A DNA stretch of 64,000 nucleotides from Apostichopus japonicus. Taxonomy: Eukaryota > Echinodermata > Holothuroidea > Aspidochirotida > Stichopodidae. Shown one piece after another: positions 6,461 to 53,900 of this stretch; the first letter of the stretch is position 1; each line of letters begins with the position of its first letter. Below the pieces are notes generated by a model that saw only the letters and a list, made by a program, of their open reading frames with translations, had not been told where the DNA came from and did no database searches. Location: positions 28,689,989-28,753,988 of the forward strand of contig NC_092572.1 in the NCBI RefSeq assembly GCF_037975245.1, written 5' to 3'. Position numbers and translations under genes: made by a program.

Positions 6461-6472
6461 ATTTTTTTTATC

Positions 6473-6646
6473 TAGAATTTGGAGAAAAATTTTGAGTTTG
6501 ACCTTCGAACAATTGATCCATGTTATTCGTGGCTTTGATATTGATGATCTATGTCTGGTATCATGGCAGTGAATTACCGCTAGAATTTGGAGAAAAATTC
6601 TGCGTTTGGCCTTCTAATAATTGATCCATGTTATTTGTGGCTTTGG
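6473..6646 (-). repeat. Duplication of the ANKS3 terminal coding sequence into the 3' UTR
   Basis: About 66 bases at 6473-6538 repeat 6580-6645, which encode the last residues of ANKS3, with a period of about 107 bp. The UTR copy lies just after the stop codon in the same orientation. Confidence 0.8.
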
Positions 6647-7044
6647 CCACTACTCTAGCCATCTGGTGAGACATTTGACCAAGATGGCTCATCAAATCTT
6701 CCATACTAATATTCTGAATATTCATAGCTCTTGTACTTGCTTTCATATCCATCTGCAGCTGCTCTGTGGTTGGACTGTCCTGAGGACCTTTTCTATCGCT
6801 GTTTGTGATTGGCTGTGATGAGGTGTATGCCATGCCTCCATGCTGTGACAACATGTTCGCTAATGAGGTAGGAGGTCCGGTGAGTCCAGATACGGGTGGG
6901 AAAGAGGTCCCCTCCAGGGGAGGAAACTGAGCGTCCAAGATGAGGCCAATCTGGAGATTCTCTGCCAAGTTTTCAGGGGATAAAAGAATATCACTTTGGG
7001 GTTCTTTCTCCTTCAGCCTCTTTAGCAGTTCACTTTGGTAAAAT
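6561..7044 (-). CDS. ANKS3: ANKS3 last coding exon
   Basis: Follows exon 9 in phase 2 through the acceptor atgtttatcttgtag. It begins [14 protein letters not shown], continuing the coiled coil, then a proline/glycine-rich stretch and a methionine-rich helical end ([20 protein letters not shown]) before the stop at 6561. This extension is absent from human ANKS3 as I know it, so the assignment rests on phase and coiled-coil continuity. Confidence 0.75.
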
Positions 7045-10000
7045 CTACAAGATAAACATTTTTTTAGAGAACATTGAAACAATACACTAGGGCTTTGGCA
7101 TCATCGCATCTCCCATCAAATCCAACATGGCAAGTTTAAAGTTCTGAGATATAACTGTGACCACATATATATCAACATCAATTTCATCTCGCAAGTCTTT
7201 GACATTTTAAAATTTTTGCAGCAAACCTTAAAACCTGACTTGATAGTTGCAGATTAGAGTTCAAGCTCTTTAAAATGTAAACTAGTTTTTTGAATTTTTA
7301 CTTTTGTTATATTGATATGATTCAATGATACAACACATCCTTCCCTTTAAACAGGCAGGAATCAGTTCAATGATATAAAGGTCTGTCCAGGTATTTACCG
7401 GTTCATCAACGATTTTACTCAACTGAGAAATATATTGATCATACAGAATTTGTTCATTTTGTAAAGCTTGGACTTGTAGGTGACCACGAATCCCAGACAA
7501 GTCTACATGTGAGGTTCTTCGTAATGTTATATTATCTTCCGATGGTAACCAAGAAGGATTTTTGAAATTTGCTAGTTTAGGTCAGCTTCCAAAATCCATG
7601 TTATGTTGTCTGAGTTGCAATGAGGCTCTCCGGTCATGCCCAAGATCCACAGAGGGCGCTGTCACTTCGGTCCTATCTAGTTACACGAAACTTGACAGGT
7701 TGCAATCTCTAACTGCAGATCGTAACAGTACCAGCATCCATATATTTTGTTTAAATTTTCCAGATGCTGGAAGCAAAAGCAGTTCCTACTCTGAATGAGC
7801 TTTTATTGAACTCTATGTTTTTGTTTAACCAGCTAATTAACATGGTGAGACCGTTTTCAGTGCAAGCATATAGCTACAGGCATATGAATTCTGTGACAGA
7901 GGGCCTTGCGTCTGTGACCCATCGCAGCATCTGTTAATATGTCTTTGAGTCCAATTCCCTGACTTACCTAACATGGTCTTACATTTTTCTGATTCTGTGA
8001 CAGAGGGACCTTGTGTCTGTGACCAATCACAGCATCTGTTAATATGTCTTTGAGTCCAATTCCCTGACTTACCTAACATGATCATACATTTCTCTCATTC
8101 TGTGACAGAGGGACCTTGTGTCTGTGATCAATCACAGCATCTGTTTATATGTCTTTCTGTCCAATTCCTTGACTTACCTAACATGATCATACATTTCTCT
8201 CATTCTGTGACAGAGGGACCTTGTGTCTGTGATCAATCACAGCATCTGTTTATATGTCTTTCTGTCCAATTCCCTGACTTACCTAACATGATCAGACACT
8301 TCTCTCATTCTGTGACAGAGGGACCTTGTGTCTGTGATCAATCACAGCATCTGTTTATATGTCTTTTAGTCCAATTCCCTGACTTACCTTACATGATCAG
8401 ACACTTCTCTCATTTTGTGACAGAGAGATCTTGTGTCTGTGACCAATCACAATATCTATTAATATGTCTTTCTGTCCAATTCCCTGACTTATCTAACATG
8501 ATAATACATTCCTCTCATTCCGTGACAGAGGGACCTTGTGTCTGTGACCAATAGCAGCAGCTGTTAATATGTCTTTCTGTCCAATTCCCTGACTTACCTA
8601 ACATGATCATACATTTCTCTCATTCTGTGACAGAGGGACCTTGTGTCTGTGACCAATCGCAGCATCTGTTGGTATGTCTTTCTGTCCTCTACTAGACACC
8701 CCTCTACAACACCTCTTAGTTCTTTCTCTTGCAGCAACTGGCCCGCCAACTCATCCTTCTTCAAGGACATCTAAGTAAAAACAAAATGGAGGATGAAGGT
8801 ATTGTTAACAGCAGCTGTTCCCACTCTATTACCAACATTATCTAGCAAAAACTCCATTACCTACAGAGATTACAAGAAATTTCCTAATTACCCCCAACAC
8901 TGTACCTAGCTGGTAATTAGTTTGACCAAGAGAAAATGACAACTGCACCCCTTACATAGACTAGTCCTAAGTGAATGTGACGTCAAAGGGTAAAATGCTT
9001 TGAACTAAGTCATTGAAATGTGTGATGTGGAAATTGTTAGTAAGTGTTTCAAGTATTTTTAACCATTTGTTACAACAATAATGCAACAACTAAAATACCC
9101 TGCTCATGTACCTGTGAGGCTAAACAAGAATTCAAACGACCTGCTGTAACCTTTAAGGTCAAATGAGAGGTTTGCCTCCATGACGACCAGAATAGCTATT
9201 CCACGGCAATGTACTGTTCAATATACAGTGAGGTTTACCAATGTGGGGAATAGCTCCACACATTCCCCTAGGCCACAGTAAGGTTGACTGTACATTATGA
9301 AATTGTTGAGTCTGCGGCTGACACAACTGGAATATTTCATTGACGGTGCCAATAATTATCTTCAAGTGGATTGCCCATGAACAAGAACCAATGTGAATAC
9401 GGATGGTCTTGGGGACTTCTACACATAACTGGTTGAACTGTTTGTGTATCACAGAAGACCGAACGACCATGTTATGTTTGTTATTGGTAAAAAAAGATAC
9501 AAATGTATGAGTATGTACCAGGCAATGTACACGTTTGAGCTTGGGGTATACCCTTGAGACTTTCCCTAAATCATAGGCAAATGTTTATTTAAATAGCATA
9601 GGTGGAGGGGTGCTGTAGCATTTAGAGTGTCTGCCCCTCAATCATTCAGGTTGCAGATTTGAATCCTCAACAGGCACTAGATTCTCTCGACCTATTGACC
9701 TATTGAAAATTGGGCACTGTGCAGTGTTGTTCAGTGGAATCTTCCGTGGATCTGGTATTTCTGGTTTTTGTCACAACTGGGGATTGATTCTGTTCTTTCA
9801 ATGGTTCCAAAACCACTAAGCAACTTTGTTAACCATAGCCACACTGCAGGGACGATGAATGGGGAAGAGGGAGGGGAGGGCCTTCACATTCCTCAGTCTT
9901 TGAGGTGTTCCATCCACTATCATCACATGGTTAGGCTTTCAAGTGAGCTTCTGTTGGCTTTCTAATCCAAATGGGAAATCCTAGACTAAACTCAAACACA

Positions 10001-13000
10001 GGGAGATTTTCAAAGAGAATTATTCCCAGGTTATCCAAAAAGATGAGCAATGGTCATTAAATCTGTTACCTCCTGATATTGCACAGCCATCTCTTGCAGA
10101 GCTGTCTCCATTTTATCGGCATAGATCTGCTCCAAGTCTGTGGAGAACATGCGGGCCTCGCTGTGCCATCTGGCGATGGCATTGGTCATCTTTCTCCTGG
10201 GGCCCATCAATCTGACAACAAATGATAGAACGTTTACGGTTTGTATTTCTGTTACAAGTTTATTTCATGACATCATCAAGGATTTCCTGACAAAAGGAAT
10301 ATGTTGTTTATAACTTTGATTTAGCCAAAACGGTGCACTTCGATATCACCATAGCAACACAATAGCCTAATCTCTAGTAGTATATCAGGACAGGACATGC
10401 AACATGTTTCCTTTTATGATGCGGTTTGTATTTGACCCAAATGTTACAAATTGTCCCGGTTTTCCCCCTACGATCTTATCTTTAAGGAAACTGTAATGCT
10501 GTTGAAGGATCAAATTTCTCTTACAATTGAAGTTAAGTCACTCTATGTGAGGTGTTGTATGTTAACTCACTGTTATACTGTTTATATACACATTGTCAGC
10601 ATATATACATGGAATGTCCATTTAACGTTTGGACTCTGGTTTTATCCTGGAGGTTGTCAAATTCCAGAACAAGTTCAAACAGTAAAGTGCTTCTTCCATA
10701 GCTTTTTTTTTCTTTCAAATTTTTTCTTTTCTCTTTCAAATCAGATTTGACCAGTTCTGACATCAATTTTGATGGTTTCCATTCAAGGTTTCCATTGAAG
10801 GCTTTGAAGCAAACGTTCAATGTAAACAGGTTAAATGTGCCCTTTTCCATATAACCATGCTGCTATCTTAACTATTTTACAAAAAAATGAATCGTCAAAT
10901 GAGAAATGTACACAGCACTTTAACAGAATACCAGACATAAACAACAAACCACATGGAATCAAACTTGATGCAAAACTTTTCCCCAAAAATTTGAACTGAA
11001 GGAAGCAAACACTCACTTGATGCCGACTTCCTTGAGGTCACTGTCAGTCAGCGTGAGGAAGACACGGAGGTCCACGTCCTGTTCCTCAAAGACAGAAATA
11101 TACTTGGAGAGGTTTAAACTCTTGAGAAGGCCTTGTAAATCATTAAAGGGATACACAGGACTATGACCTACAGTGTCACCCTCGGACGGGGGATGTACAA
11201 CAACCCTACTCGATAATGGAAGAATCGAAGGGGTGTATCCTATACTAGAAGCAGGAGGTACGGTTTGGTTTCCCTGTGGCTGAACGATGTCCGCATCTTT
11301 CGATGTACGTCCAGTCTGGTACGGTAGATGGTCAGCTGGTAGCATCCGCATGGGTTCAAGGTCAAAGGTCACATTCTTTGATTTTGAGTCGCCCAAAGTT
11401 CTCTGACCGGCAGGGTCACAAGGGGTTCCTCTGGGGTTCTCTTTGTGGACGGTAACGTGTCTAGAGTCTTGATCGGGTAGCCTCCCACCGCTCAGGTGGG
11501 TGACAAAATCTGACAGGGCTGTAGAATACGACGAGTTTGGACTGGCAAAGTGTTGACTGAGGTTAGGTAGGAGGTGCTCTGCCTCCCCATCATTACTTGA
11601 TATACTGCCCTCTCTGCTCAATCCCAGGGCTGCGGCTAACCCTCCCCCTCCCCCACTGCTGCTACAGCTGGATCCCCCGCTGCTTCTGACCGTGACCGCA
11701 TCACTGATGCAGAAAGGGTTAGTCTCTTCCCTCTCTGCTTCTCTCCCTCTGGATGAAGATGACCTCTCATCTGGTACATCTGGGAAACAAAAACAGAGTT
11801 TCATTTTGTGAGTAGCAGTAAATATTTAACAGCATTTGTGAACATAAACATACTTATTGTCTCAATACTTCAAGTTGCTTTCTTTTTCTTTGTCTGTAAA
11901 CTACTTTTTTAATTTTTAACTAATTTTACAAACCAGCCTGTTATTGTAATATCCTGATATAAGAGAATTGCTTGATCTGATGTCACTCTGTAAATCAATC
12001 CATCATAAAACTCAAACAACAATCTATAGTGGTTTCTTTTCTTCTTTTTTTTCCCTGCCAGATGAGATTAATCTTCTTAGAATTTTTATGATATATGCAT
12101 GGAGAGTATTTTGCTTTCAACATATTGTTTTCAACATATTGGTTTCAATATGTTTGACCACATTGATACAGTAAGTCCTGATACCCATGACCCTCTGCAT
12201 GATATGATCCAAGGCGCCAGATTCTGGTACAAGGATTAAATTAGCATTCAAATGTTGCATAGCAGTTTCCATAGCTCTGAACTTTGTCTCTAATTAAGTA
12301 TTATGGTTACTGTGTACAAAGACTCCAGTCCTATACATCTTTTGCACTTGTTTGTACAGCAATTAGCCCAGTTTGCATAGCAGTTTGCATGGGATGTGAC
12401 ATGAGATAAACTATTCTCTGCGGTGGTTACCATACTGAACCATTAGAGGAAAGATAAAATACCTGAAACCATCAACTACCATTTATAGTCCTCCGAAAAT
12501 TGCACCTGCCACAAATTATGAAATTAGGCGTCAACTTCAAATGCTTATAATGAAAATATAGAATGTCTCATTAAATTTGTAGGACACAAATTTTCTGTAT
12601 TGAACGAAGCCATTTGAGACCCTAATAATTTTATTGTGGCTTTTTCATAATATCATCTGACAAGCAAGGTTAAAAGTAAAGTTGGAAATTATATAAATGT
12701 GCATATTTATAACTACTATGACAGCATTGTCCAGGGAGACCAAATTGTTGAACAAAATCCAGGTGGGAGCAGATGGGGGGGTTTCTAAAGTTGAGTTCTT
12801 ACTTTGAATAATCACTCTATAAGTTTGGAAAACAAATTGATGACATATAAACACAATTATTAACAAACCTCTGCTTTGACTTCCTATTCATGTAATTTGC
12901 TCCTTGACTTACCTGAGCGTTTCTTCTGAAGGGTCTGCATCCGAGCAAACATTGCCGGTCCATCCTGTATACTTGGTCCCTTCCCTCTCGCAGTCCCACC

Positions 13001-16000
13001 CTTCCTGTGATGAGGACGATTCGGTGGATGAAAGCTCTCATCTGATGAGCTCAAGTCAAGGTCTGAGAAAGCAAGTTTATGAACCAAAATTTGTTTAAAT
13101 CATTTAATAATTAAAAGAGAAAAAAGAAAAGAGACGTAGTAACTTTTTCATTTCAGTTGTGGATGTGTTTAATGTCAGGGGTTCCCTGGTATTCATTTTG
13201 TGAGGTGACGGATTCTTTGATTTTTTCCGAAAAAATATTACCAACATCGCCACCTCACTGTTTTCAGAGGAATAAAAAAAATGCAATGATTTGCAATCCA
13301 ACTTGTTAAAACCATCCCATCACTGAAAAATTGGCTGTGAGTAGTAAATAATAGCAACAAATGAAAGTTCTTCTGCCTATTTAACATAGCAATTTTATCT
13401 AATTTATTGAGATGATCATGATTGACATTAGGATGTTTCAGAAACTTTTCTGGGCAACCATGCCTACACCAGGCTTGGAGAGTAGAGGTACAGCAAGAGT
13501 TTGAGTACGAGCTCCCCTTGGTGTGTGTACCAGCACTAGTACAATGGTTTAAGTACAATAATTTTGTGTTAGCTCATATTTAATTACTGGAAATGAGTTC
13601 AAATCAACAAGTCCAAGTACAGAGCAACAATACTAAGAATAGGGGTAGGAGTTTGCAAGGCTTTACCTCTGAAAGTTGTCATGATCTATCAATGTAGTGC
13701 TTCGTTTGGGTTTGTCATGGTCGGCAAGTTCCTTTTGATCGTTGATTAGCATTTATCTCTTTTAGTGTAACAAACCTGTAATATATCGCACTGTGTGTGC
13801 TTGCAATTAAAACTTATACAGTTGTAGGTATTTTAATGCTGAGTAATGACTGGAAACATTTCTCCAAAGTTCCCAAATCTCTCAAATCCAAAGCCCATGG
13901 TAGAGGTTACTGTACCTGAAGGTTCATACCTTCCCTATCGATTCATCATTATTAGACTTTCGTTTTGCCTCTGATCCTACAGTTTAAGTTGTGATAGGTA
14001 TTATTGAGTTATGAATATTCATGAAGATGTAAATACAAACAGCCATTCAAAAAGTTTAATCCCTTCCATGATTGCATATCACTCACTTAAGTCTAAAAAC
14101 CCCACGCGACTCTTAATCCCTGATCACTCTACATGAAGACCTGTCATATACTGGGGGTTTTCCCTTGATTTTGAGATTGTTAGTTTGATATTTACCTGGT
14201 TCAGATCTATGAGTAGAGGGTGTTACATTAATGTTATCGATCAGGGCTACCACATTCATGTTTCCATTCAACTCCCCCTCCCCCACACTGGTTTGATATT
14301 TACCTGGTTCAGATCCAAGAGTACAGGGTGTTACATTAATGTTATCGATTGGGGCTACCACATTCATGTTTCCATTCAACCCCCCCCTCCCCCACACTGG
14401 TTTGATATTTACCTGGTTCAGATCCAAGAATAGAGAGTGTTACATTAATGTTATCGATCAGGGCTACCACATTCATGTTTCCATTCAACCCCCCCACTTC
14501 CACCCACTATTTACCTGGTTTGATATTTATCTGGTTCAGATCTAAGAGTAGAGGGTGTTACATTAATGTTATCTATCAGGGCTACCACATTCATGTTTCC
14601 ATTCAACCCCCCCCCACACTATTTACCTGGTTTGATATTTACCTGGTTCAGATCTAAGAGTAGAGGGTGTTACAGTTATGTTATCGATCAGGGCTACCAC
14701 ATTCATGTTTCCATTCAACCCCCCCTCCCCCACACTTTTTACTTGGTTTGATATTTACCTGGTTCAGATCTAAGTGTAGAGGGTGTTATCGATCAGGGCT
14801 GCCACATTCATGTTTCCATTCAGCCCCCCTCCCCAACACTATTTACCTGGTTTGATATTTACCTGGTTCAGATCTAAGAGTAGAGGGTGTTACATTAATG
14901 TTGTCTATCAGGGCTACCACATTCATGTTTCTATTCAACCCCCCCCTTCCCCACACTATTTACCTGGTTTGATATTAACCTGGTTCAGATCTAAGAGTAG
15001 AGGGTGTTACAGTAATGTTATTGATCAGGGCTACCACATTCATGTTTCCATTCAACCCCCCCCTTCCCCCACTTCCCCACACGATTTACCTGGATAGATA
15101 TTTACCTGGTTCAGATCCAAGAATAGAGAGTGTTACATTAATGTTATTGATCAGGGCTACCACATTCATGTTTCCATGCAACCCCTCTCCCCTCCCCCAC
15201 ACTATTTACCTGGTTTGATATTTACCTGGTTCAGATCTTAGAGTAGAGGCTGTTACATTAATGTTATCTATCAGGGCTACCACATTCATTTTTCCATTCA
15301 ACCCCCCCCCCCCTTCCCCACACTATTTACCTGGTTTGATATTTACCTGGTTCAGATCTTAGAGTAGAGGCTGTTACATTAATGTTATCTATCAGGGCTA
15401 CCACATTCGTGTTTCCATTCAACCCCTCCCCACTCCCCCACACTATTTACCTGGTTTGATATTTACCTGGTTCAGATCTAAGAGTAGAGGCTGTTACATT
15501 AATGTTATCTATCAGGGCTACCACATTCATGTTTCCATTCAACATAGCCAACGATCTTGCTGTGTCACCTCTTTTGTTCTTGACCTTCACATCCACACCC
15601 TTTAAAAAAGAGGGGAAAATATGAAACAGAATTAAACAATGAAAAACAACATGTGAAAGGAAGATGACAATTGATTAAAACAAAGGAAAAAGTGGAAGGT
15701 TTATGAAAAGTTCAAGCAGCATGAAAAGTGTTTAGAGAGAAGAGCAAAGATTGCAGTCAATTTACATTTAGTTTTGTAGCTTAAAATTCCATTTCCAGGT
15801 TGAAGTTTATATGATTTCCTAGTATAAATGGACACCCATTTTGTCTGTCTAAAATTTATGTCTTTATGTACTGAAAGAATAATCTCGAGTTCAACAATCA
15901 ATTACATTAGTCCGCCCCAGATCTGTTAAACACACAGTAAGAGACTCTTAATAAAAATTTTAAAAATCCATTAATTTTTGTTATTCTTTATTTTTTTAAT

Positions 16001-19000
16001 CTGAATTATTTTTTTTTCTCCGAAAATAATGATTTGACCAACAATATGGCATTCAATAAATTAAGACCAATTTTTTTTCCAGCACAGTTTATGCCACTAA
16101 ATTTGACACATTTTGGTCATAACTAATATAATTCGGTTCAAGGCATATTAACTTACAATTCCCTGTAACTATTGGTTAGCTTCACTTGTGTTGTGGTGAA
16201 TTTTTCGATGATAGATTTATAATAGAGTGCAATTGTCAATGGCTATGACAACAATTTATTTCCAGCAATTGTGTACAGTACATGAATGTTTAACAAGGTA
16301 TAAACGAATATTTTGATAATCAATACAATCTAGAGAGACAAGTACAAAGAAGAAAAAAACATTCATCATGTTAATTGATATGCAATATTAAAGCTATACA
16401 AATGCATGGAAAAGGAGCAAAATAGAAGCGCAATGGTTAAAAAATATTTTCCCCATTTGAATATTATAAATATATATATATATTTACTGGAGAGAAATTG
16501 GTAAAAGGAAACAAAACTCCAAAACAAGAATTAAATAATATAAAAAAAAAATATATATAAAAAAAATGAATTTGTCACAATTCAATACAGTAAAAATTGT
16601 AAGAAATTAGTTTTGGCATTGATAAGTTGACAATAGACTTTTTCATATCTATTTTTAAAAGAGTTCAAGGTTGAGGCTGACTTAATTATAATATCTAATG
16701 AGTTCCAGAGTTTAACCCCAGATATGGAAAACTGTTTATTCCTTGTCCTCGCATAATTTACATAGAGTGCAATTTTGTCTTATCATGCAAAAACAATATA
16801 TTGTAAAATCGTCAGTAGTACCCCAGTATAGTTTATGTCTAGTGCCACCAAATTCTGTTCATGCCTTTAATTTGCATGTTATGCTAATATACATCTAGCA
16901 TTAAGTTTTTATTCTTTGTAAAAACCGAAAGTAATCATTTAGAACTATCAGAGCTGTCACGATGAAAAGACTTTCCTTTTTGTTGTCATTCATTATTTCA
17001 CATTCTTCTTTACGATCCAGGGACCGATGCTACAAGCCAATTCTAATGTGTTTGTACCATGTTTGTGCTGCAAACATCAAACGTGTGAGATTATTTTTGC
17101 TTCGTGCATGAGCGATGTTATGAAGAAAAAACGAACAGTTGAATACTGAATCTGGATGGTAACAGTAACATATATGGTAACAGCATCACAGATGGTAACA
17201 CCATCATTGATAACCTTGGTTTTGGTTGATATGACTTATGTAATGTTAGAAATAACAAATAAAATAAATAAATATTTGCTTTTTATATAGCGCTTTATAC
17301 CAGCGATAGGTCTGAAAGCGCTATACAGACATTATATTACCCCTGGTCAATGATAACCTGTCCCAGAGACAATCCCTCCAGTCGGCAGCAGTTATATACT
17401 GTGCCCAATGACAAGTTACCTCACAGGTACCCATTTAACCCCTGGGTGGAATGAGGCAAGTGACAGGCTTGGATCACAAGTCCGACGCCTTAGCGAATTG
17501 GCCACCACGCTCTCACGCTCAATAACAGCCAGCTAGCTCATGAAAACCCAACTTAACACTTTCATTTATTTATACATTTTTTCCTCTACAACATCAATAC
17601 AGAAAGTGAAAGAACATACAGTATAAGCAATGATAAACATCGAAGAGGAAAGATGTTAAAAAAAGAAAGGAAACATGTTTAAAATTTAAAAAAAAAAATC
17701 TTTGTGCATGAGCTTGACATGTGTACACTCCTGAAGCAAAATAGTAAGCCAAGAAAAGATATAAAACATAAGCAAAAATAAGAAAGAAAGTGAGGAATAC
17801 AACTAATACAGTTAACCCCCCCACCACCCCTATCCACCCCCTTCCCCATACCCTCCCCTGAAGAAGCAACCTGGATGGTCTTTTGCATTAGCTTAAAGAG
17901 GTTTCTTCGTAAAGGTTTTCTTCTACAAACTAGGAACTATAAATATATCTGACTCAACATTCTTGTAAATGACTTTCACAGAGAAACTTGTACGGGTGAG
18001 TTAACATCATTGCTATGCCTTCAAACTAACAGCGGAAATGGACGGAAAAAAAGAAAAGTTGAATAATTTTCACTTTAGTATTAAAGGAATGCTTAAAGCA
18101 TTATCAATATGCGGGAAAGATGATGTGACCCGCTAATGTCTTTTTTTGGGGGGTTTTCCTCTTTTCATGCGCAATGGAAAAAAAAAGAGTGCTCAATTGA
18201 TAACATTGTGGATAGAAAGAGGGATGAAAATAGACACATCAAACTAATACCTTTTCTAGTAAATAATTGACAATGGTTTCATGACCTTCTGCTGCTGCTA
18301 GCATCAATGGCGTGACTCTCAGATTAAATTCCCTGTCGGAAAAATAGAAAGAAAAGAAAGATATAACGGATTAAGCCTTCATTACAAACAGATACCAAAG
18401 ATGAATCTTCCATCTGCTCCACCAAAATGTGTTCTCTTTACCTACAACAAACAACACAAAATCTTCCAAATTAAGTAGCAGTAGCAACATACAAACAGAT
18501 ATTAAATAGCTAGCTAGTCCTTTAGCTAGTTTTTTTCTTCTTTTGTTCATTATGTGCTATTACTTTTAACACTATACTACACAAAAGATTTCAAGGATTA
18601 ACTATTGCTCATTTAAATTTTCAAATCTTCTGTCATCATGTTTACACAAGAGTTTCACTATTGACCTCTGTTGACCTCATGTGACCATAACATGCACACA
18701 AACCATTACATGCACAAGCCATTGCCATCGCATGGATTCATGTGGCTTTTTTCTTGCAATTCTCTTGAACGGTTCATAAATAGGAGCACTCATGATGTAC
18801 AGGGAATTTAATACTGGTCAAAGCTTAACTGATCTTGTTTGTCTCAGGAAAAGACAGGGTAACATAAAAACAATGTGTTCATTGCACACGGAGTGTTCAA
18901 GAATCTATTGATACCACTGTTCCAGTTCACAGTTTCCTCAAAATACCTACGTTCTGTGGATATATGTTCTGTTAAAGGAATCTATTACTGCCGTCTAATT

Positions 19001-21641
19001 TCACAGTTTCCTCAAATACCTACGTTCTGTGGAAATATGTTCTGTTAAAGGAATCTATTACTGCTGTCCAATTTCACAGTTTCCTCAAATACCTACGTTC
19101 TGTGGAAATATCTTCTGTAAAAAGAATCTATTACTACCGTCCAATTTCAAAGTTTCCTCAAATACCTACGTTCTGTGGATATATGTTCTGTTAAAGGAAT
19201 CTATTACTGCCGTCTAATTTCACAGTTTCCTCAAAAACCTACATTCTGTGGATATATGTTCTGTTAAAGGAATCTATTACTGCCGTCTAATTTCACAGTC
19301 TCCTCTAATACCTACGTTCTGTGGAAATATGTTCTGTTAAAGGAATCTATTACTGCTGTCCAATTTCACAGTTTCCTCAAATACCTACATTCTGTGGAAA
19401 TATGTTCTGTTAAAGGAATCTATTACTACTGTATAATGTCACAGTTTCCTCAAATACCTACGTTCTGTGGATATCTGCACCCAGGTCTGCCATGAGCTGT
19501 ACAACTTTCAGGTGTCCGGAGTAGGTAGCGTGGAAAAGAGCCGTCCAACCTCGTTCATTTGGAATGTCTAATTTTGCCCCATTCTGGACAGATAAAACAG
19601 GAAAAACAATCAGCTTGTAACCCCTTTAAAGCATGTCTTTCACATGTTTTGACCACAAGACCTCCAACAACCAAGACCTCCATCGCCACCATCATTTCTC
19701 ATCAATAATAGTTGCCAGACCAAATTCAGCACAAGAATAGGCCTAGCATAGACCTTTGACAAACCCCCGAATAGTTACTGGTTTGGGGATTTACGAGCAA
19801 CGATATTTACCTGTCTGCCTCTGCGAATCATCCGCTTTGAAAACACTTCTGTGATAGAATTTTGGATTCCACACATCCACAACACATGGATGCTTTTAAT
19901 TTATCATATTCTTCAAGTGAAAATGAAACATTGTGTTGCCTCTGTTCAACGCATCTCCTAACGATTGAAATTGATACTTTTGTTAAAACTAATATATATA
20001 TATCTATTATACTCTGGTTCACTTAAAAGAAGCGAAAGTAACACTGCTACTTATTTAAGTCCTTCTATCAATTAGGTGTCTATGGTTGTTCTAACACTTA
20101 ACTTTTACTTCATGTGGCACACTGATATCCATACTAAAGTTTTAATAACAAGTTGTTCCGTGTCTCTTATAGAAGTAAAAATAATCATCTTCAGTAAGAA
20201 ACTACAGTATACTGTATATGACAAAGGAGATACTTTAATGACGGTGTTCCCCCTTGATGGACCCCTCTGGCACATGCCTAACAAACTCTCCCTAAGTGTG
20301 TAAATCATGCATGTTTTACAGGTACTTTCACCCTTTGTTGATTCTTGGATGTTTAGATTCCTTCTGCATACAGAGAGAATAAGCACTGTGTATATTAATG
20401 TCTGTGTAAAAGTAAAAGTTGGCCTGACGTTTCGATCCTAGCAGGATCTTCTTCAGAGGCTAAATGACAAGTAACGGTAACAGAAGGGACAAAAACATGC
20501 ACAGAATACAGACAGGTTAATTAGCATGGTGAACACAAAGAGATAGATGTAAGGGGATTAGTAGACAAGGGATGGAGAGGAGAAAGATTATATATATTAA
20601 TTCCTATTAGGATTCATCTCTCCTTATGTTAGTGTGGGCTGCATATTCCAAAAGCTAAATCACATCTGGATATTTACAAGCTATAAGCTTACCTGTCTCC
20701 TCACAACCTACATAGCACACAGATCCGATGGAAAAACAACGTCCACACAAAAAACACGTTGAGGCACTTCTGGTGGTACAGTAGAATGTAGTGGTATCGT
20801 AGAACCAGAGTGCTAATGTTGTGGGTATACAGGTAAGCGAGACGAAGTACATGATGCTTTCCTATACCTATTATTGCTATGTCTTCTAATCTTTGTTTCA
20901 CATGAACTTTGACATCAGTGCCAACAAACCCTCTACATTCATGAATACCCTAGTGTTCTTTTCCCTTTACTTGCCTGGTGTAGGAAGTAAGCCACACTCT
21001 CATTGCCGCAGCTTGCCGCAAGCATCAGTGGTGTTGTGCCAGACTCCGTTCCTATGTTAACGTCCACCTTAGTGTCCAGGAGTAGGTTTACTATGTTGTC
21101 GTGTCCAATGTAGCTGGCATACATCAAAGGTGTCCACTCCCCTCTGTTCTTTCTGTTTGGGTCAGTGTCTGGCCTGAAAGGAAACGGACAAACCTCAGAG
21201 ATGTAACCCAATTGGAGGTGGGACCTTGGTGTGAAGAGGTGGCTCCTGAGAGGAAGGGAGTGGAGGTTGGGTGGGGGAGAGACCTGTATGTAGCTTGGGT
21301 GGGAAAAGTGAAGAACATTCACAGCTCAGGAAATGTAAGCTTACATGCACAAGCACAGATCAAGAAATGTAAGACTACAGGAGATTTCTGCCAGCTTCCG
21401 CTACCATGAGTAAAACTGATAGAAGACAAAGAATGGATTTGGTTTATTACCTTGCAAGCAGCTCTTTCACAAAGTCATAATCACCCAGAGAAGCTGCTGT
21501 GTGCAAGTCTAATGGAATGGGGTCAAAGGTCACATCATCATGGAGTGATTCATTCCAGCCAATCCACATTGAGAGGCTCTTATCCAGGAAGTCTGACTCA
21601 CTGCTGGCTTCATCACTGACGGTATCCAGAGGTTGCTCCAT
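6561..21641 (-). CDS. ANKS3: ANKS3, ankyrin repeat and SAM domain protein 3 (10 coding exons, 812 aa)
   Basis: Joined on the minus strand: 21641-21451, 21173-20975, 19583-19462, 18332-18251, 15599-15467, 13062-12913, 11779-11017, 10211-10070, 8770-8598 and 7044-6561. All phases agree and the sum is 2439 nt including the stop. The product starts with an acidic serine-rich leader and six ankyrin repeats (about residues 40-240). A serine-rich linker follows, then a SAM domain (about 505-565) with the ANKS3 signature FEEQDVDLR, a coiled coil (about 570-680), and a polar tail longer than the human protein (656 aa). ANKS3 is a cytoplasmic/ciliary scaffold; in vertebrates its SAM domain binds ANKS6 and it works with NEK8 and BICC1. 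The start is the ATG at 21641, just before the [16 protein letters not shown] segment, which matches the family N-terminus. All introns are GT-AG except intron 2, which is GC-AG. The 5' UTR was not resolved. Confidence 0.92.
7880..8690 (-). repeat. 105-bp tandem array derived from the exon 9/intron junction
   Basis: About seven units of 104-106 bp. Each contains the reverse complement of the exon 9 end, the splice donor and about 35 bases of intron. Donor-bearing motifs (plus-strand 'gacttacct') fall near 7960, 8064, 8170, 8276, 8382, 8488 and 8592; the one near 8488 has the GT changed to AT. Because the unit is a multiple of three, long spurious open frames run through it on the other strand. 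Confidence 0.9.
8598..8770 (-). CDS. ANKS3: ANKS3 coding exon 9 (coiled coil)
   Basis: Encodes the coiled coil [19 protein letters not shown], matching the QELRAVVES segment of vertebrate ANKS3. The acceptor is ttgtttttacttag and the donor TTAG|GTAAGT. The last roughly 70 nt and the donor are the founder unit of the 105-bp array at about 7880-8690. Confidence 0.88.
9603..9690 (+). repeat. tRNA-like SINE head fragment
   Basis: 'gctgtagcatttagagtgtc' followed by 'ggttgcagatttgaatcc' resembles the A and B boxes of a tRNA-derived SINE promoter, but both are degenerate and no tail was recognised. Confidence 0.4.
10070..10211 (-). CDS. ANKS3: ANKS3 coding exon 8 (end of SAM domain)
   Basis: Completes the SAM domain with [18 protein letters not shown] and starts the coiled coil ([15 protein letters not shown]). 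The acceptor is atttgttgtcag and the donor GAG|GTAACA. Confidence 0.93.
11017..11779 (-). CDS. ANKS3: ANKS3 coding exon 7 (linker and start of SAM domain)
   Basis: The largest exon. It encodes a low-complexity serine/glycine linker, then the first half of the SAM domain with [18 protein letters not shown] and SDLKEVGI, very like vertebrate ANKS3. The donor CAA|GTGAGT splits a lysine codon. Confidence 0.93.
12913..13062 (-). CDS. ANKS3: ANKS3 coding exon 6
   Basis: Encodes the conserved linker DLSSSDES followed by a basic stretch and the SIQDGP segment, which resembles SIHEGP in the vertebrate protein. The acceptor is ttgctttctcag and the donor TCAG|GTAAGT. Phase 1 on both sides. Confidence 0.88.
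14160..15540 (-). repeat. 107-120 bp tandem array derived from the exon 5/intron junction
   Basis: About twelve units including the exon copy. Each carries the end of the last ankyrin repeat (plus-strand 'gggctaccacattcat'), the donor (plus-strand 'atttacctggttcagatc') and a C-rich plus-strand linker of variable length ending in 'ccccacac'. The unit near 14516 has the donor GT changed to AT. The variable C-run explains the length differences. Confidence 0.92.
15467..15599 (-). CDS. ANKS3: ANKS3 coding exon 5 (last ankyrin repeat)
   Basis: Encodes the last ankyrin repeat ([20 protein letters not shown]). The exon 3' half and its donor CCAG|GTAAAT are repeated about eleven more times downstream in the intron. 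A second donor-like CCAG|GTAAAT lies 16 nt further on; its use would shift the frame. Confidence 0.9.
17255..17525 (-). repeat. SINE-like element with tRNA-related head
   Basis: Read on the minus strand it starts with 'agagcgtggtggccaattcg' and 'gcgtcggacttgtgatcc', then a central block with 'cacccaggggttaaatgggt' and 'gtgaggtaacttgtcatt'. It ends with 'gcgctatataaaaagc' and an A/T-rich tail. The central block closely matches the SINE at 61.7-62.05 kb, so both belong to one superfamily. Confidence 0.65.
18251..18332 (-). CDS. ANKS3: ANKS3 coding exon 4 (ankyrin repeat)
   Basis: Short exon encoding [17 protein letters not shown] and the following helix. The split ACG codon at the exon 3/4 junction is restored in frame; the donor is AAAAG|GTATTA. 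Confidence 0.92.
18925..19475 (-). repeat. 73-bp tandem array derived from the exon 3/intron junction
   Basis: Eight units at an exact 73-bp spacing. 'cctacgttc' or 'cctacattc' occurs near 18946, 19019, 19092, 19165, 19238, 19311, 19384 and 19457. The last is the real donor of exon 3; each other unit carries the same donor with about 12 exon bases and about 60 intron bases. Confidence 0.92.
19462..19583 (-). CDS. ANKS3: ANKS3 coding exon 3 (ankyrin repeat)
   Basis: Encodes the ankyrin repeat [20 protein letters not shown]. The donor AC|GTAGGT is itself the first unit of the 73-bp tandem array that continues into the intron at lower coordinates. Confidence 0.92.
20400..20620 (-). mobile_element. 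Penelope-like element fragment with hammerhead ribozyme core
   Basis: On the minus strand the core CTGAAGA (20456-20450), a perfect GATCC/GGATC stem with a short loop, and GAAAC (20433-20429) form the conserved hammerhead arrangement of CUGANGA, helix II and GAAA. Such motifs are known in the terminal repeats of Penelope-like retroelements. No reverse transcriptase frame is present nearby, so this is a terminal fragment; the outer limits are approximate. Confidence 0.6.
20975..21173 (-). CDS. ANKS3: ANKS3 coding exon 2 (ankyrin repeats, GC donor)
   Basis: Encodes two ankyrin repeats with the family segments [13 protein letters not shown] and [13 protein letters not shown]. The acceptor is tttcctttcag. 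The only donor that keeps frame with exon 3 is CAG|GCAAGT, a GC-AG intron. The nearby GT four bases further on would break the frame. Confidence 0.92.
21451..21641 (-). CDS. ANKS3: ANKS3 coding exon 1
   Basis: Encodes the start methionine, the acidic leader and the first ankyrin helix pair ([20 protein letters not shown]). The donor is AAG|GTAATA; the exon ends in phase 2. The 5' boundary is only the chosen ATG, because the upstream UTR exon structure is not resolved. Confidence 0.88.
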
Positions 21642-26889: not shown

Positions 26890-29814
26890 TTACAGACAAT
26901 GATGACAGAACCATTCGACAGAATGAATTTCTCTTTCGCTCATATCATGTATGTCTGCAATATCAGTGCATCCCTTATGGAACCAGCGAGGGCACCATTC
27001 GCAACCCACCCAGTCGTCATCATCGTCACGGTAACACTGCTCGCAGATGTCGCAGATATTTTCGTCTACCAGGGTCCAGTCGTCTTCCTGGCCCTTCCCT
27101 TTTGTCTGTCCTGTAGGATCTTCTTCATAATAACTTTTTTTCTTCCCACTCTTTTTCATAAACTTCAATTTGATCTTCTTTTCCATTGGCCTGGTGTCTG
27201 TTTCCTCTGTTCTCTCAGCTTCCACCTGGTTGCTGGTCCCTTCTCCATCCTCATTACTGGCAATTAGTACCCCTTCTAGTGCACCTGAAGCTTCTGCTGC
27301 ACTTGGTGGTTGCTCTCGAACTTCAACTTCTATTGGCAAGTCTCCATCTTTTGAGAGACGTGTCACTTCTCCATCCGTGGCAGGTCTTTCCCCTTCACTG
27401 ACATCTACGTCATCACCCAACTCCATCACTACATCTCCTGTGTGCTGTTCCTCCCAGGTCTCATTCACCATTGCCAATGCCTCTTTCATGTTGCTTAACA
27501 ACTCAGCCTCTTCCCCATCAGGTAATAATTCATCTGTTGCCAAGGAGGTTGGTAGCACTTCCATTTGCTCTAGACTAGGCATTTCTAAACTTTCTGGAGT
27601 TTCTGATGTACTGGGTGGACTTGGAAATTTCAAACTATCATCCAATCCCAACTGTACCAGAGTGTTCGCTATCACCGGACTTCCATCTGGTGGTTTGCTG
27701 AGTGCTGGCCCATCTTCTGATCTATCTGGAGGTTTGCTGAGAGCTGGCCCCTCTTCTGATCTATCTGGAAGTTTGCTGAGAGCTGGCCCCTTTTCTAATG
27801 CTGCCTCAATACCCTGTTCCTCTTCATCCATCACCTCAGTAGCAACACTTTGCTGTTGATCTCTCCCTACACTGGTAACTGTTGCATGGACAACTCTCGC
27901 ATCATTCTTTCCTGATGCTGTCTTTTCTGCTCTTTCTGGTAAATCAGCCATCAATTTTCTACAGACTGGTCGTTTCACTCGACTTTTCTGCTTTGCGTCC
28001 TCCAATCTCTTTGCCCTTTCTTTCTGCAGCCTTACTTTCTCCACTTTCCTGGCCTCTCTGATAACCTTTTTCTCCCGTCTGGTCCTTTCGAGTTCTGCCT
28101 TCGCAGATAGCTTGTCTTCCAAATACTGCCGGTACTTCTTTCCTGAGATGGCTTTTGGTAGCTGTTTGGTGGCTTTGGCAGGACGGCGTGATTCTGGAGC
28201 CTTTGGGTACCGTAAATATTTGTCTAAAGACGGACTCACATAAGCAGAGGTTAGTACTGGTCGTCTAGTCGGAGAAGATGGAATGGCGGGAACTGCTGCT
28301 GGTGGAACCGTTTCAGAATCTTTGTTGGCTTCTTGGAGTTTCAATTTTTTCCAAGTATTGAACAACTCGTCCGTCTCGATATCAAATCCCTCACGCAACC
28401 GTCGCTCAAACACCCATATTTTCTCTGGGGTGAAGGTGCCTTCGAGTGCTTTCCGGGCCATAGTAGCTGCCACATTATTTACTACCTGGACTGGAACACG
28501 TACCCTATTGTCAGGCTGTTGGTGGGGAGAGGTAGCTTCTTCAGAAAATTCACCTATTGGAGACAAGATTGGCATATCATAATCAGAGATGCGAGCTATC
28601 TCTTGTGAGCGGAAAATTTCGGACGGTGCCACTTTGGCTTTGTCAAATTCTTTAGTGAAAGGATACAACCCTGCAGCTCGGAACCCATTGGCAGCAATCT
28701 TGGGCACTGCACTTTGCCTCCAAGCTTTGTAGAATATGCAAGCAAATGTTTGTTTCGTCACATTTTGTCCAGGGTTATCAATTTGCCATTGCTGGACTTC
28801 CTTCTTCCAGTATGTCTTGACACTCTTGAAGAGACTGAGGTCGCACGGCTGCAGGATGTGGGATGCATGAGCCGGAAAGCAGAATAGAATCACTTTGTTC
28901 TCTGAACAGAAATTTGCAGTCTCCAGGTTGATGTGGCTCCTGTGTCCATCCATGAAGAGAATCACAGGAAATTTGATATTAGCTTGCTTTAACACCGGCA
29001 CAAAGTGGTTTGCAATCCATTCATAGAAAACTTCTTGGTCAATCCATCCCGATTCACTTCTTCCGAGAAACCAGTTGTCAGGAGCTCCTCTCAGGGGATT
29101 GTACTTGAAACGTTGGCCAGGGAAAATTAGCATTGGAGGCACATACATTCCTGCTGCGTTCATGCAAGCCAGGACCGTTATCTGACTCTTATCAGAGTTT
29201 GTCAGCTGGTACACTGTTTTACATCCTGTAGGTGCCAAGACTTTCATTGTTTTGCCATTCAGAGGGAAGCCACTTTCGTCGCAGTTGAACATACGGGATG
29301 GATCATCCATTATATCAAGGCCACCTTCTTCCTCCGTGAGATAATTCTCCAACTCTACATACCAAGCCTCCAGTTTTTGTACTGTCAGCATAGCCCTCTC
29401 TTTTCCCAATGATTCTCCGAGGCGCTCACTAAGCCCAGGGTGTCTTCTTTTAAATCTGCGAAACCAGTCATTTCCTGGGGTGTTATTTGTGAATGGATTT
29501 TGCCTGCCGTCTTCATCCAGTATTTTCTTTACCATCATTCTTAGCTGTTGCCTTGTCTGGCCATATCCAATCCTGGACATATTCTTCAACCACTCTGCAA
29601 GTTTTTTCTCTTCCGCTGTTGTGAGGACGGGACTGGGACCTTGGGTAGTAAACAGAGGAGACCTACCACTGAGTTTGTCTATGAGGGTAGTTCGTGGTAT
29701 ACCATAGTCTAACGATGCTCTACGCATGCTACATTCTTTGTTCCTCACTTTCAGTACGGCGGCCTCTAAACTCTCCCAGCTGTAAGCTCTGTATTTCCCT
29801 CTGCTTCTTGGCAT
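26890..29814 (-). CDS. Pogo/Tigger-type DDE transposase with C-terminal PHD finger (974 aa)
   Basis: One uninterrupted frame in the coding part. Residues about 8-50 form a Psq-type helix-turn-helix (YSWESLEAAVLKV, YGIPRTTLIDKL). Residues about 60-130 form a CENP-B-type helix-turn-helix (WFRRFKRRHPGLSERL). Residues about 170-380 are the DDE core, with D179 (FNCDESGF), D289 (ILFMDGHRSH) and D325 (LQPCDLSLF): DD35D spacing, all catalytic residues present. A basic coiled coil follows (about 550-620), then three 13-residue repeats around GPALSKPPDRSED (about 676-712), an acidic tail, and a C4HC3 PHD finger (C921, C924, C938, C941, H946, C949, C970, C973). The protein should bind DNA in the nucleus. 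Whether it still transposes or is a host gene is open: the frame is intact, but I found no terminal inverted repeats. A splice acceptor (tcccttctcag) lies directly before the ATG, implying an upstream non-coding exon. Confidence 0.9.
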   Translation of the reverse strand: MPRSRGKYRAYSWESLEAAVLKVRNKECSMRRASLDYGIPRTTLIDKLSGRSPLFTTQGPSPVLTTAEEKKLAEWLKNMSRIGYGQTRQQLRMMVKKILDEDGRQNPFTNNTPGNDWFRRFKRRHPGLSERLGESLGKERAMLTVQKLEAWYVELENYLTEEEGGLDIMDDPSRMFNCDESGFPLNGKTMKVLAPTGCKTVYQLTNSDKSQITVLACMNAAGMYVPPMLIFPGQRFKYNPLRGAPDNWFLGRSESGWIDQEVFYEWIANHFVPVLKQANIKFPVILFMDGHRSHINLETANFCSENKVILFCFPAHASHILQPCDLSLFKSVKTYWKKEVQQWQIDNPGQNVTKQTFACIFYKAWRQSAVPKIAANGFRAAGLYPFTKEFDKAKVAPSEIFRSQEIARISDYDMPILSPIGEFSEEATSPHQQPDNRVRVPVQVVNNVAATMARKALEGTFTPEKIWVFERRLREGFDIETDELFNTWKKLKLQEANKDSETVPPAAVPAIPSSPTRRPVLTSAYVSPSLDKYLRYPKAPESRRPAKATKQLPKAISGKKYRQYLEDKLSAKAELERTRREKKVIREARKVEKVRLQKERAKRLEDAKQKSRVKRPVCRKLMADLPERAEKTASGKNDARVVHATVTSVGRDQQQSVATEVMDEEEQGIEAALEKGPALSKLPDRSEEGPALSKPPDRSEDGPALSKPPDGSPVIANTLVQLGLDDSLKFPSPPSTSETPESLEMPSLEQMEVLPTSLATDELLPDGEEAELLSNMKEALAMVNETWEEQHTGDVVMELGDDVDVSEGERPATDGEVTRLSKDGDLPIEVEVREQPPSAAEASGALEGVLIASNEDGEGTSNQVEAERTEETDTRPMEKKIKLKFMKKSGKKKSYYEEDPTGQTKGKGQEDDWTLVDENICDICEQCYRDDDDDWVGCEWCPRWFHKGCTDIADIHDMSEREIHSVEWFCHHCL

Positions 29815-29829
29815 CTGAGAAGGGAATGA

Positions 29830-30760
29830 AGAACAAGATGCTTAGGTGTTACAAATTAACCAGAAAGAGGAGCGTTTAGTGAAAGGTACCAAGAATCACT
29901 TATCATGTTGACAAAGTTTAACTCTGTTTAGTGTCATAGTTTAACCAAACAGCCAGTTGGGTTTGTGATTCCTTGGGATACAATGTACTAAAAATTCAAA
30001 ATAACTATCTGACTTAGGTAGAGCAAGTGAGTTAAATTTGTACAAGAATTAAGTGAGAGTAAGAAAAGATTAGCAATATACAGTTTTTTTTGTTGTTGCA
30101 CTCCCTTGTGGGCATCAACCAATTCAATCCCTGGTACGGATTTTACAGTAAAGAGTTTTATTTCAAAATGTTTCAATAGCCAGTAAGAACAATCTTCCTA
30201 TGTGAAATATAGATAAAGTAAAAGTCATGTAGTACTAATCACAGAGAAAATGGCCAATGTTGAACCACTTTGAGATAACTTGTTGACCCCTTGAGGCAAA
30301 TTTATGCCCATTTGAGATATCCTGTTGACCCCCTAAATAGCTCAGAAGGTGAAAAGTGATAGTTTGACTGCAGGTTTAAAGCAACACTCTCAAAGCAGAT
30401 TTCATTTCCTGGAAGATTGTATGTTTTGTGCAACTCCTCCAGAGACCCTTAATTCACAAAACTAAAATGAATTTGACCATTTTTTAGCCCAATTTATGGT
30501 TTTTGAGCTAAAATTTTAACCCCTACCAAAAAAAATGGTCCCAAAAACATTTAGTGCACACAAACTGGCTCAAAAATATATTTGCCCCCAAAAAATTGAG
30601 TCCCAAGAAATGGTGGCAGAAAAAAATATTGGGCTTCACAATTCCAGGCCTAAAGAATGTGTCCCAACATGCATTTGAGGTGGAAATGAAATTTGTGCCC
30701 ACCCTGTCCAAAAATGAACGGATTTCTGTTTGGCCCACATTGTACCAATCAATGTAGGCC
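29830..30760. other. Non-coding segment upstream of the pogo-type gene
   Basis: AT-rich; only short open frames without recognisable domains. It would be intron or promoter of the pogo-type gene if the acceptor next to the ATG is used. Confidence 0.4.
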
Positions 30761-50900: not shown

Positions 50901-53900
50901 TGGACTCTTGAACCGATACTGAACTGTTATCATTATCATTAATATTATTATTAACATTCATAAATTACATTTACAAAGCTCACTTATTCTTAAAGTAAGC
51001 TCTAAGTGCTCTACAAATGAAACAAACTTTCAAAATTTCATAAAAGAAAATAACAATGAGATCTTAAATAGATAAGACAATGAAAAACTGTAAATGTAAA
51101 TTGAAAACAATAGGAGCACACTAGAGAGTTACTGTAAAATCCAAACTAACAAGAGCAATGTCAAAGTTAAAGGCTCACAGAGAAACACAACAAGGGGGTG
51201 GAACAAAGGTAGTGGACATTATTGAAAAAAATGCGTGAAGAGATGAGTCTTTAAGTTACATTTAAGGGAACAAAGGGAAGTATTAAATCTGATTTGTACA
51301 TACTACGCAGCTTTGATGCTACGTCATAAGCCTGGATACTTCACAAGTCCAGGGATCTAAGAAACATTCACCACTCTCTCCTTGTCTCTTTTGTAGTTGG
51401 AGCATCCAGAAGCAGTTCGTAGGATTCTTTGCCTTCAATCACCCAGGTAAACCAAGCTATGCAGTACCATTGAGGGTTGTAGGCCATCTAGTCATTACAC
51501 ACTTTACTTTTGTATGGTAGCTTAGGCTATAGGCTACTTACTGTACATGGAATTCAATGTTATTGTACAGTCTGATATGTAATAAGTAAGTACCCTTATA
51601 GCATGGTGCAAAGTTTGCTGCATGTTGCCTGATGGTCTGGTTTTGTATCCACGATTTAGTATGTTAGCTGTAAAGGTGCGTGTGTGTGTGTGTGTGTGTG
51701 GTAAAATGGCTGGTTTAGTATTCTGCATGGTATAATTGGAATGATCTGATTTAGCACATGGTGTGGCAATGTGGTATACCTTGCTAGGGTTTGATACAGG
51801 CAATAAGTCCTGATGCATGAATATATGGTAGCATGGTGTTGTGTGTGGTACATTTCAGTATGGTGCAAGATTTAGTATGATATGGTGTGCTATGCAGCAG
51901 GGCATGGTGTGATAGGGAATGTCACATGGTTTGCTATGGTGTAGGAGTTATGATTTATAGTATGTACATATGGCATTCAGAATTGTTTGGTATGGTGCAA
52001 TGTGTGGTGTGGTTGGGTGCCTGGATAGATAGGTGTGTTTGATAATGTGCATTGCATGGTGTTATACATGGTGCTGTGATGGTGAAGTATTAGTATGGTA
52101 TTATTCAGTATGACTCAGTGTGTGTTATGATTGGGACTGCTGACTGGTTTGATTTCATTAAGCTTGTATGTTGGTATGTCTGGTATGGTAGTTGGTATTG
52201 TACATGGTGCTGTGATGGTGAAGTATGAGTATGGTATTATTCAGTATTGCTTAGTGTGTGTTATGATTGGGACTGTTAGCTGGTTTGATTTCATTAAGCT
52301 TGTATGTTGGTGTGTCTTGTATGGTATTTGGTATTACACATGGTGCTGTGATGGTGAAGTTTGAGTATGGTATTATTCAGTATGACTAAAGTGTGTGTTA
52401 TGATTGGGACTGCTGACTGGTTTGATTTTATTAAGCTTGTATGTTGGTGTGTCTGGTACTCTGGTATGGTATTTCGTATTGTACATGGTGCTGTGATGGT
52501 GAAGTATGAGTATGGTATTATTCAGTATTGCTTAGTGTGTGTTATGATTGGGATGGTTAACTGGTTTGATTTCATTAAGCTTGTATGTTGGTGTGTCTGG
52601 TATGGTATTTGGTGCTGTACATGGTGCTGTGATGGTGAAGTATTAGTATGTTATTATTCAGTATGACTTAGTGTGAGTTATGATTGGGACTGTTAACTAG
52701 TTTGATTTCATTAGACTTGTATGTTGGTGTGTCTGGTATGGTATTTGGTATTGTACATGGTGCTGTGATGGTGAAGTATGAGTATGGTATTATTCAGTAT
52801 TGCTTAGTGTGTGTTACGATTGGGACTGTTAACTGGTTTGATTTTATTAGACTTGTATGTTGGTGTGTCTGGTATGGTATTTGGTATTACACATGGTGCT
52901 GTGATGGTAAGGTTTTAGTATGGTATTATTCAGTATGACTAAGTGTGAGTTATGATTGGGACTGTTAACTGGTTTGATTTCATTAGACTTGTTTGTTGGT
53001 GTGTCTGGTATGGTAGTTGGTATTGTACATGGTGCTGTGATGGTGAAGTATGAGTATGGTATTATTCAGTATTGCTTAGTGTGTGTTATGATTGGGATGG
53101 TTAACTGGTTTGATTTCATTAACTTGTATGTTGGTGTGTCTGGTATGGTATTTGGTGTTGTACATGGTGCTGTGATGGTGAACCATTAGTATGTTATTAT
53201 TCAGTATGACTTAGTGTGAGTTAAGATTGGGACTGTTAACTAGTTTGATTTCATTCGACTTGTTTGTTGGTGTGTCTGGTATGTTATTTGGTATTGTACA
53301 TGGTGCTGTGATGGTGAAGTATTAGTTTGGTATTATTCAGTATGACTTAATGTGAGGTATGATTGTGACGGTTAACTGGTTTGTTTTCATTATGCTTGTA
53401 TGTTGGTGTGTCTGGTATGGTATTTGGTAGTACACGTGGTGCTGTGATGGTGAAGTATTAGTTTGGTATTATTCAGTATGACTTAATGTGAGGTATGATT
53501 GTGACGGTTAACTGGTTTGTTTTCATTATGCTTGTATGTTGGTGTGTCTGGTATGTTATTTGGTATTACACATGGTGCTGTGATGGTGAATTTTTAGTAT
53601 GGTATTATTCAGTATGACTTAGTGTGAGGTATGATTGTGACGGTTAACTGGTTTGATTTCATTAAGCTTGTATGTTGGTGTGTCTGGTATGGTATTTGGT
53701 ATTGTTCATGGTGCTGTGATCGTGAAGTTTTAGTATGGTATTATTCAGTATGACTTAGTGTGAGTTATGATTGGGACTGCTGACTGGTTTGACTTCACTA
53801 GACTTGTATGTTGGTGTGTCTGGTATGGTATTTGGTGTTGTTCATGGTGCTGTGATGGTGAAGTATTAGTATGGTATTATTCAATATAACTTAGTGTGAG

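Follow-up and report, generated by a model that had tools for sequence, protein, structure and literature searches.

The window analysed here, a stretch of 64,000 nucleotides from the holothurian Apostichopus japonicus (contig NC_092572.1, positions 28,689,989 to 28,753,988), contains a gene with three tandem arrays, each of which is built on the boundary between an exon and the intron behind it. The coding region (6561..21641, minus strand) consists of ten exons for a protein of 812 amino acids with ankyrin repeats and a SAM domain, and its frame is intact provided that at each array the first copy of the 5' splice site (donor) is the one that splices. The protein matches Ank_2 (4.5e-53) and SAM_1 (4.1e-14); we take the gene to be ANKS3, a name with which this domain content is consistent. 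At the end of exon 2 (20975) intron 2 begins with a GC donor, CAG/GCAAGT.

The first-pass annotation of this DNA had claimed that exons 3, 5 and 9 each founded an array out of exon end, donor and intron start, and this was confirmed at all three, on the minus strand in each case. Exon 3 (19462..19583) ends after 19462 with the donor AAC/GTAGGT, of which the last 16 exon bases belong with the donor to the first copy of a 73-bp unit; the array (18926..19471) comprises this founder and 7 matches, and one weak copy adjoins it, extending to 18894. Exon 5 (15467..15599; donor CAG/GTAAAT after 15467) contributes 77 bases to the first copy of a unit of about 117-120 bp, which is present as founder plus 11 matches (14183..15543) and contains in most of its copies two AGGTAAAT-like words. 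Exon 9 (8598..8770; donor TAG/GTAAGT after 8598) contributes 90 bases to a 105-bp unit with founder plus 7 matches (7888..8687). The further claim that every unit holds the 5' splice site went too far: the GT was retained in 6/6 (exon 3), 9/10 (exon 5) and 5/6 (exon 9) of the downstream copies scored, 20/22 in total.

If exon 3 or exon 9 is read through its donor, the next codon is an in-frame stop (ACG TAG and AGG TAA, respectively), and exon 5 read through its donor yields six sense codons before a stop. The acceptors of the three array-bearing introns sit outside the arrays, which stop well before the next exons. In ANKS3 3/9 donors lie in the first copy of a repeat and 0/9 acceptors in the last copy.

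The three units have nothing longer than 8-bp words in common, as had been noticed before, and a whole-genome DNA search with them (671,581,487 bases on 35 contigs) found at its sensitivity no unit elsewhere, all matches being within or adjoining the arrays. A shared origin was rejected because the units are unalike and do not match outside their own arrays. Tandem arrays are also a frequent source of assembly error. That the ANKS3 arrays are an assembly artefact is nevertheless extremely improbable, since their copies are separated from one another by single-base differences, like structure was found on many contigs (see below), and the assembly that matches in size, with 671.60 Mb on 23 chromosomes, was made from HiFi reads according to the portion of its description consulted (PMC10344927).

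The last exon had been counted as a fourth event at the same kind of position. The three donor arrays stand, but the last exon is a different case: a 66-bp coding segment (6580..6645, minus strand) was duplicated once, from the coding exon into the 3' untranslated region, where a single copy (6472..6537, minus strand; 60/66 identical) lies beyond the stop codon. The two copies are thus placed around the stop codon, and the extra one has neither a donor nor any other splice site.

How often local repeats span exon edges was counted in 26 presumed genes, which were picked by protein family regardless of arrays, myosin heads first and then dynein heavy chains. Since closeness of the exon matches also guided the choice, the sample is short of genes whose exons lie far apart. 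The myosin sample comprised 13 contigs with 12 presumed genes (g11a and g11b being treated as one), 233,000 bases and 102 exons; from the 70 myosin matches those at four or more further loci were left out, and 14 of 116 raw matches (second copies, weak matches) were removed by hand before counting. The dynein sample followed a plan set beforehand, except that 14 shorter stretches (53,014 bases, 71 donors, 70 acceptors) took the place of the five or six pieces of 10 kb intended, and that exons were placed from Pfam matches rather than by tblastn; of 81 matches, the 72 that fell inside the stretches entered the count and 9 did not. Together the samples amount to 27 contigs, 286 kb and 59 first-copy blocks. 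Exon edges were placed automatically, by a rule that made use of a table of donor weights, and one donor (L033, 1389) was counted despite a weak motif. To be scored, a site had to be covered by a local direct repeat that extended 6 bases beyond it in both directions; repeats were accepted from 30 bp and 75% identity upward, with their copies within 4 kb. For the null model the repeats were shifted circularly relative to the exons. A screen for three evenly spaced donor-like words had been dropped at the stage of a permuted control word, because the counts for this control, of which about the first 100 matches were listed, came mostly from a few arrays with short units.

Repeats across exon boundaries proved to be common in the genes sampled. 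Among the myosins 7/102 donors lay in a first copy and 1/102 acceptors in a last copy, against a background at non-coding positions of 2.45% for first copies, 2.59% for last copies and 10.6% for any copy; among the dyneins 4/71 donors and 4/70 acceptors were spanned, with backgrounds of 2.7% (first copy) and 2.5% (last copy). Without exception the 11 donors were in the first copy and the 5 acceptors in the last. All 16 cases were also inspected by eye, and three or more copies were recognized in 7/11 donor and 4/5 acceptor cases, the others (4/11 and 1/5) being two-copy or spaced duplications. At the pooled donor rate (11/173) the probability that at least three of nine donors are spanned is 0.016. 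With nine donors in each of the 19,828 genes, about 320 genes of this kind would be expected; a rate of 2.5% lowers the probability to 0.0012 and the expected number, again with nine donors per gene, to about 23.

One sampled gene, g7 (L015-L017, myosin V-like), carries three donor-spanning arrays, as ANKS3 does, at 12547 (unit 53 bp), 23907 (about 62 bp) and 27285 (about 160 bp) of its joined contig; in the array at 27285, four copies can be read behind the exon end ...NDEHIKILR(A/G)SQ. Arrays of at least three copies that mirror those of ANKS3 on the acceptor side were seen in L029 (about 1668-2010), in gene g2 (L003-L005 joined, 14637-15008) and, in gene orientation, in L031 (about 884-1172) and L037 (about 2250-2728).

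We propose that the ANKS3 arrays are probably minisatellites of the type named 'mirages' in amphioxus, that is, ordinary local tandem duplications whose breakpoints chanced to flank an exon-intron boundary. A duplication with random breakpoints on both sides of the boundary would have come first, and slippage or unequal exchange would later have enlarged it to an array. The array would be tolerated in that the first donor copy, which is joined to the exon, splices and the remaining copies become intron, with which the intact frame is in keeping; it is the unharmed copy beside the exon that would allow such arrays to persist. The position of donors in first copies and of acceptors in last copies in all 16 cases fits this tolerance. 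Since the sampled genes are full of local duplications, several per cent of their exon edges were caught, and some genes three times. The donor position inside the first copy was uniform, without a fixed place (14 cases, including the three of ANKS3; Kolmogorov-Smirnov P 0.90), which fits random breakpoints; with donors spread so evenly over the unit, there is no sign that the duplication is cut at the splice site.

Several results weigh against chance breakpoints as the whole explanation. In the pooled sample 11/173 donors were spanned where 4.06 were expected, an excess of 2.7-fold (shift test P 0.0012; 0.0006 with another seed); donors and acceptors together gave 16 against 8.04 expected (P 0.0048), for which chance alone accounts poorly; first-copy occupancy peaked at the donor (6.4%) and was about 2% at +200 to +300 and 4.4% at +500; and the raw per-site change in donor cores (0.031) was lower than in the rest of the units (0.051; Fisher P 0.0096). 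The donor excess was robust: under other thresholds the donor count was 10 or 11 (P 0.0002 to 0.0026) and the acceptor count stayed at 5.

The donor excess and the occupancy peak, together with the finding that in ANKS3 itself all three arrays with units of at least 50 bp span donors, would be explained if duplication around 5' splice sites were promoted by transcription or splicing, via R-loops, via nascent RNA bound by U1 or via pausing of the polymerase. We regard this as rather unlikely. The dynein acceptors were struck as often as the donors, the difference between donor and acceptor rates in the pooled sample was not significant (Fisher P 0.10), and the units are not in constant register with the donor. 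The myosin excess (P 0.013) depends on gene g7, without which 4/94 donors were found against 2.31 expected (P 0.20). Compared with the any-copy background, the myosin donors were not enriched at all (7 versus 10.8 expected), although first copies make the fairer background for donors because only the exon-adjacent copy can serve the exon. The pooled data therefore hint at a donor bias, one that depends heavily on a single gene and was not donor-specific in the second sample. It is correspondingly doubtful that 5' splice sites in this lineage are mutational hot spots for tandem duplication, with about 2.7 times the local rate; if they were, transcription or splicing would seed intronic minisatellites and maintain a standing supply of extra donors for the evolution of introns and isoforms.

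Exon edges in general might instead collect tandem duplications, owing to base composition, to chromatin or to slower decay of the constrained exon copy. The excess at both edges taken together speaks for this, as does the symmetry of the dynein sample (donors P 0.055, acceptors P 0.047). The pooled acceptors were, however, at background (5/172 versus 3.98 expected, P 0.36), last-copy occupancy ahead of acceptors stayed within 1.7 to 4.7%, and the myosin acceptors were depleted relative to the any-copy background (1 versus 10.8 expected, P 1.4e-4). Slow decay fits poorly with the donor excess among repeats more than 85% identical, where it was undiminished (10 versus 2.82 expected). We consider this explanation very unlikely.

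The lower raw change in donor cores could indicate that selection retains redundant or decoy donors, be it for alternative splicing as in human IFI6, where repeat units serve as donors according to the text available in part (PMC4526556), or for holding U1 snRNP in the intron; the GT retained in most ANKS3 copies points in the same direction. Conservation of donor cores had been hinted at by an ungapped count. It was not upheld in the 8 of 14 arrays that were aligned unit by unit: a rank test showed no special conservation (P 0.38), and the distinct variants per column were 0.222 in donor cores and 0.235 in the rest. The raw difference was carried mostly by one array (g7a), and copies are not independent. 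In addition, were a later donor used in any of the three ANKS3 introns, the lengthened exon would run into a stop immediately or by the seventh codon at the latest. Selection for spare donors therefore deserves little credence.

Local duplication with chance breakpoints thus needs no donor-specific machinery, and a mild donor bias is possible beside it. The first-pass annotation had held that minisatellites born at random should not be centred on donors, and had suggested a process tied to transcription or splicing, or selection for decoy or redundant donors, as a possible cause. The first point was borne out weakly, by a donor excess next to which acceptors are spanned as well. Of the second there remains the modest excess of repeats over donors; a process or selection was not established, given the spanned acceptors, the missing phase and the missing conservation of cores. 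The comparison it had proposed, of donor arrays with shifted positions and with 3' splice sites, came out in the sampled genes in favor of donors against the former and without a significant difference from the latter.

The window harbors other repeated sequences apart from ANKS3. On the minus strand an intact frame of 983 residues (26893-29841) contains helix-turn-helix domains (Tc5, Psq), a DDE_1 endonuclease domain and a C-terminal PHD finger, and is presumably a pogo/Tigger-like transposase joined to a PHD domain. With 47 of 154 candidates scored, at least 51 genomic matches to it were counted. Its relatives on C17 and C19, at 50-54% identity, are open over 699 and 678 codons, respectively; the similarity includes the PHD end, as it does in a stop-bearing relative on C11. 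At 52057-58607 lies a very long array with a 136-bp unit, most of which is made up of about 36 copies. Two near-identical translated segments on the minus strand (59944-60210 and 61099-61344), about 1.1 kb apart, represent a further local duplication.

In man, the minisatellite of the IFI6 (6-16) gene is located at the end of an exon. Its downstream repeat units act as alternative donors (Turri et al. 1995, cited in PMC4526556, a source available in part). The likeness to ANKS3 is that minisatellite units carry donors; the difference is that the later donors are used in IFI6, whereas in ANKS3 they would lead into stops.

Tandem duplication across or beside splice signals is also known from intron gain, as in the Rogers model, in ATP2A1 and in the RdRp gene of potato (PMC4974935), where the duplication crosses an intron-exon boundary. 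In intron gain by AGGT duplication the duplicated segment provides the donor as well as the acceptor of the intron. ANKS3 differs in that last copies of repeats contain none of its nine acceptors and no new intron is evident. Related, though not identical, are internal tandem repeats in human segmental duplications, which can create new introns at boundaries (PMC2812944, in the part seen). The minisatellites connected with splicing in C. elegans (PMC4039745) were set aside as a parallel, the portion consulted being concerned with intronic motifs rather than boundaries, and in the covered text of a Daphnia repeat survey (PMC3152781) the word 'splice' is absent. Among the matches listed in a literature search, whose coverage of subscription journals is poor, there was no report of boundary-spanning minisatellites in echinoderms.

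The closest relatives of the ANKS3 arrays are the mirages of amphioxus, repeats at the exon-intron boundaries of Adh3, BflGb6 and BflGb9 (Canestro et al. 2002, cited in PMC3087553). According to the sections of PMC3087553 that treat them, both kinds of boundary can be duplicated, Adh3 data and globin RT-PCR suggest to the authors that regular splicing is undisturbed, somatic instability was observed at Adh3, and new introns might arise via mirages. As in amphioxus, the ANKS3 units span the exon-intron boundary, the copies carry splice signals (the GT in most of those downstream), the units differ between the three loci, and in the genome both donor and acceptor sides are affected, as the 27 contigs sampled show. 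The ANKS3 arrays therefore belong to an already described structure and are not a new phenomenon. They differ from the amphioxus mirages in coming from another phylum and in occurring three times in one gene and at several per cent of the sampled exon edges. Our results suggest that minisatellites across exon boundaries, described from a handful of amphioxus genes, are frequent in a second deuterostome genome (about 6% of sampled donors and 3% of acceptors), and they provide a concrete system in which the lengthening of introns, the origin of spare splice sites and the attraction of duplications to 5' splice sites can be tested.

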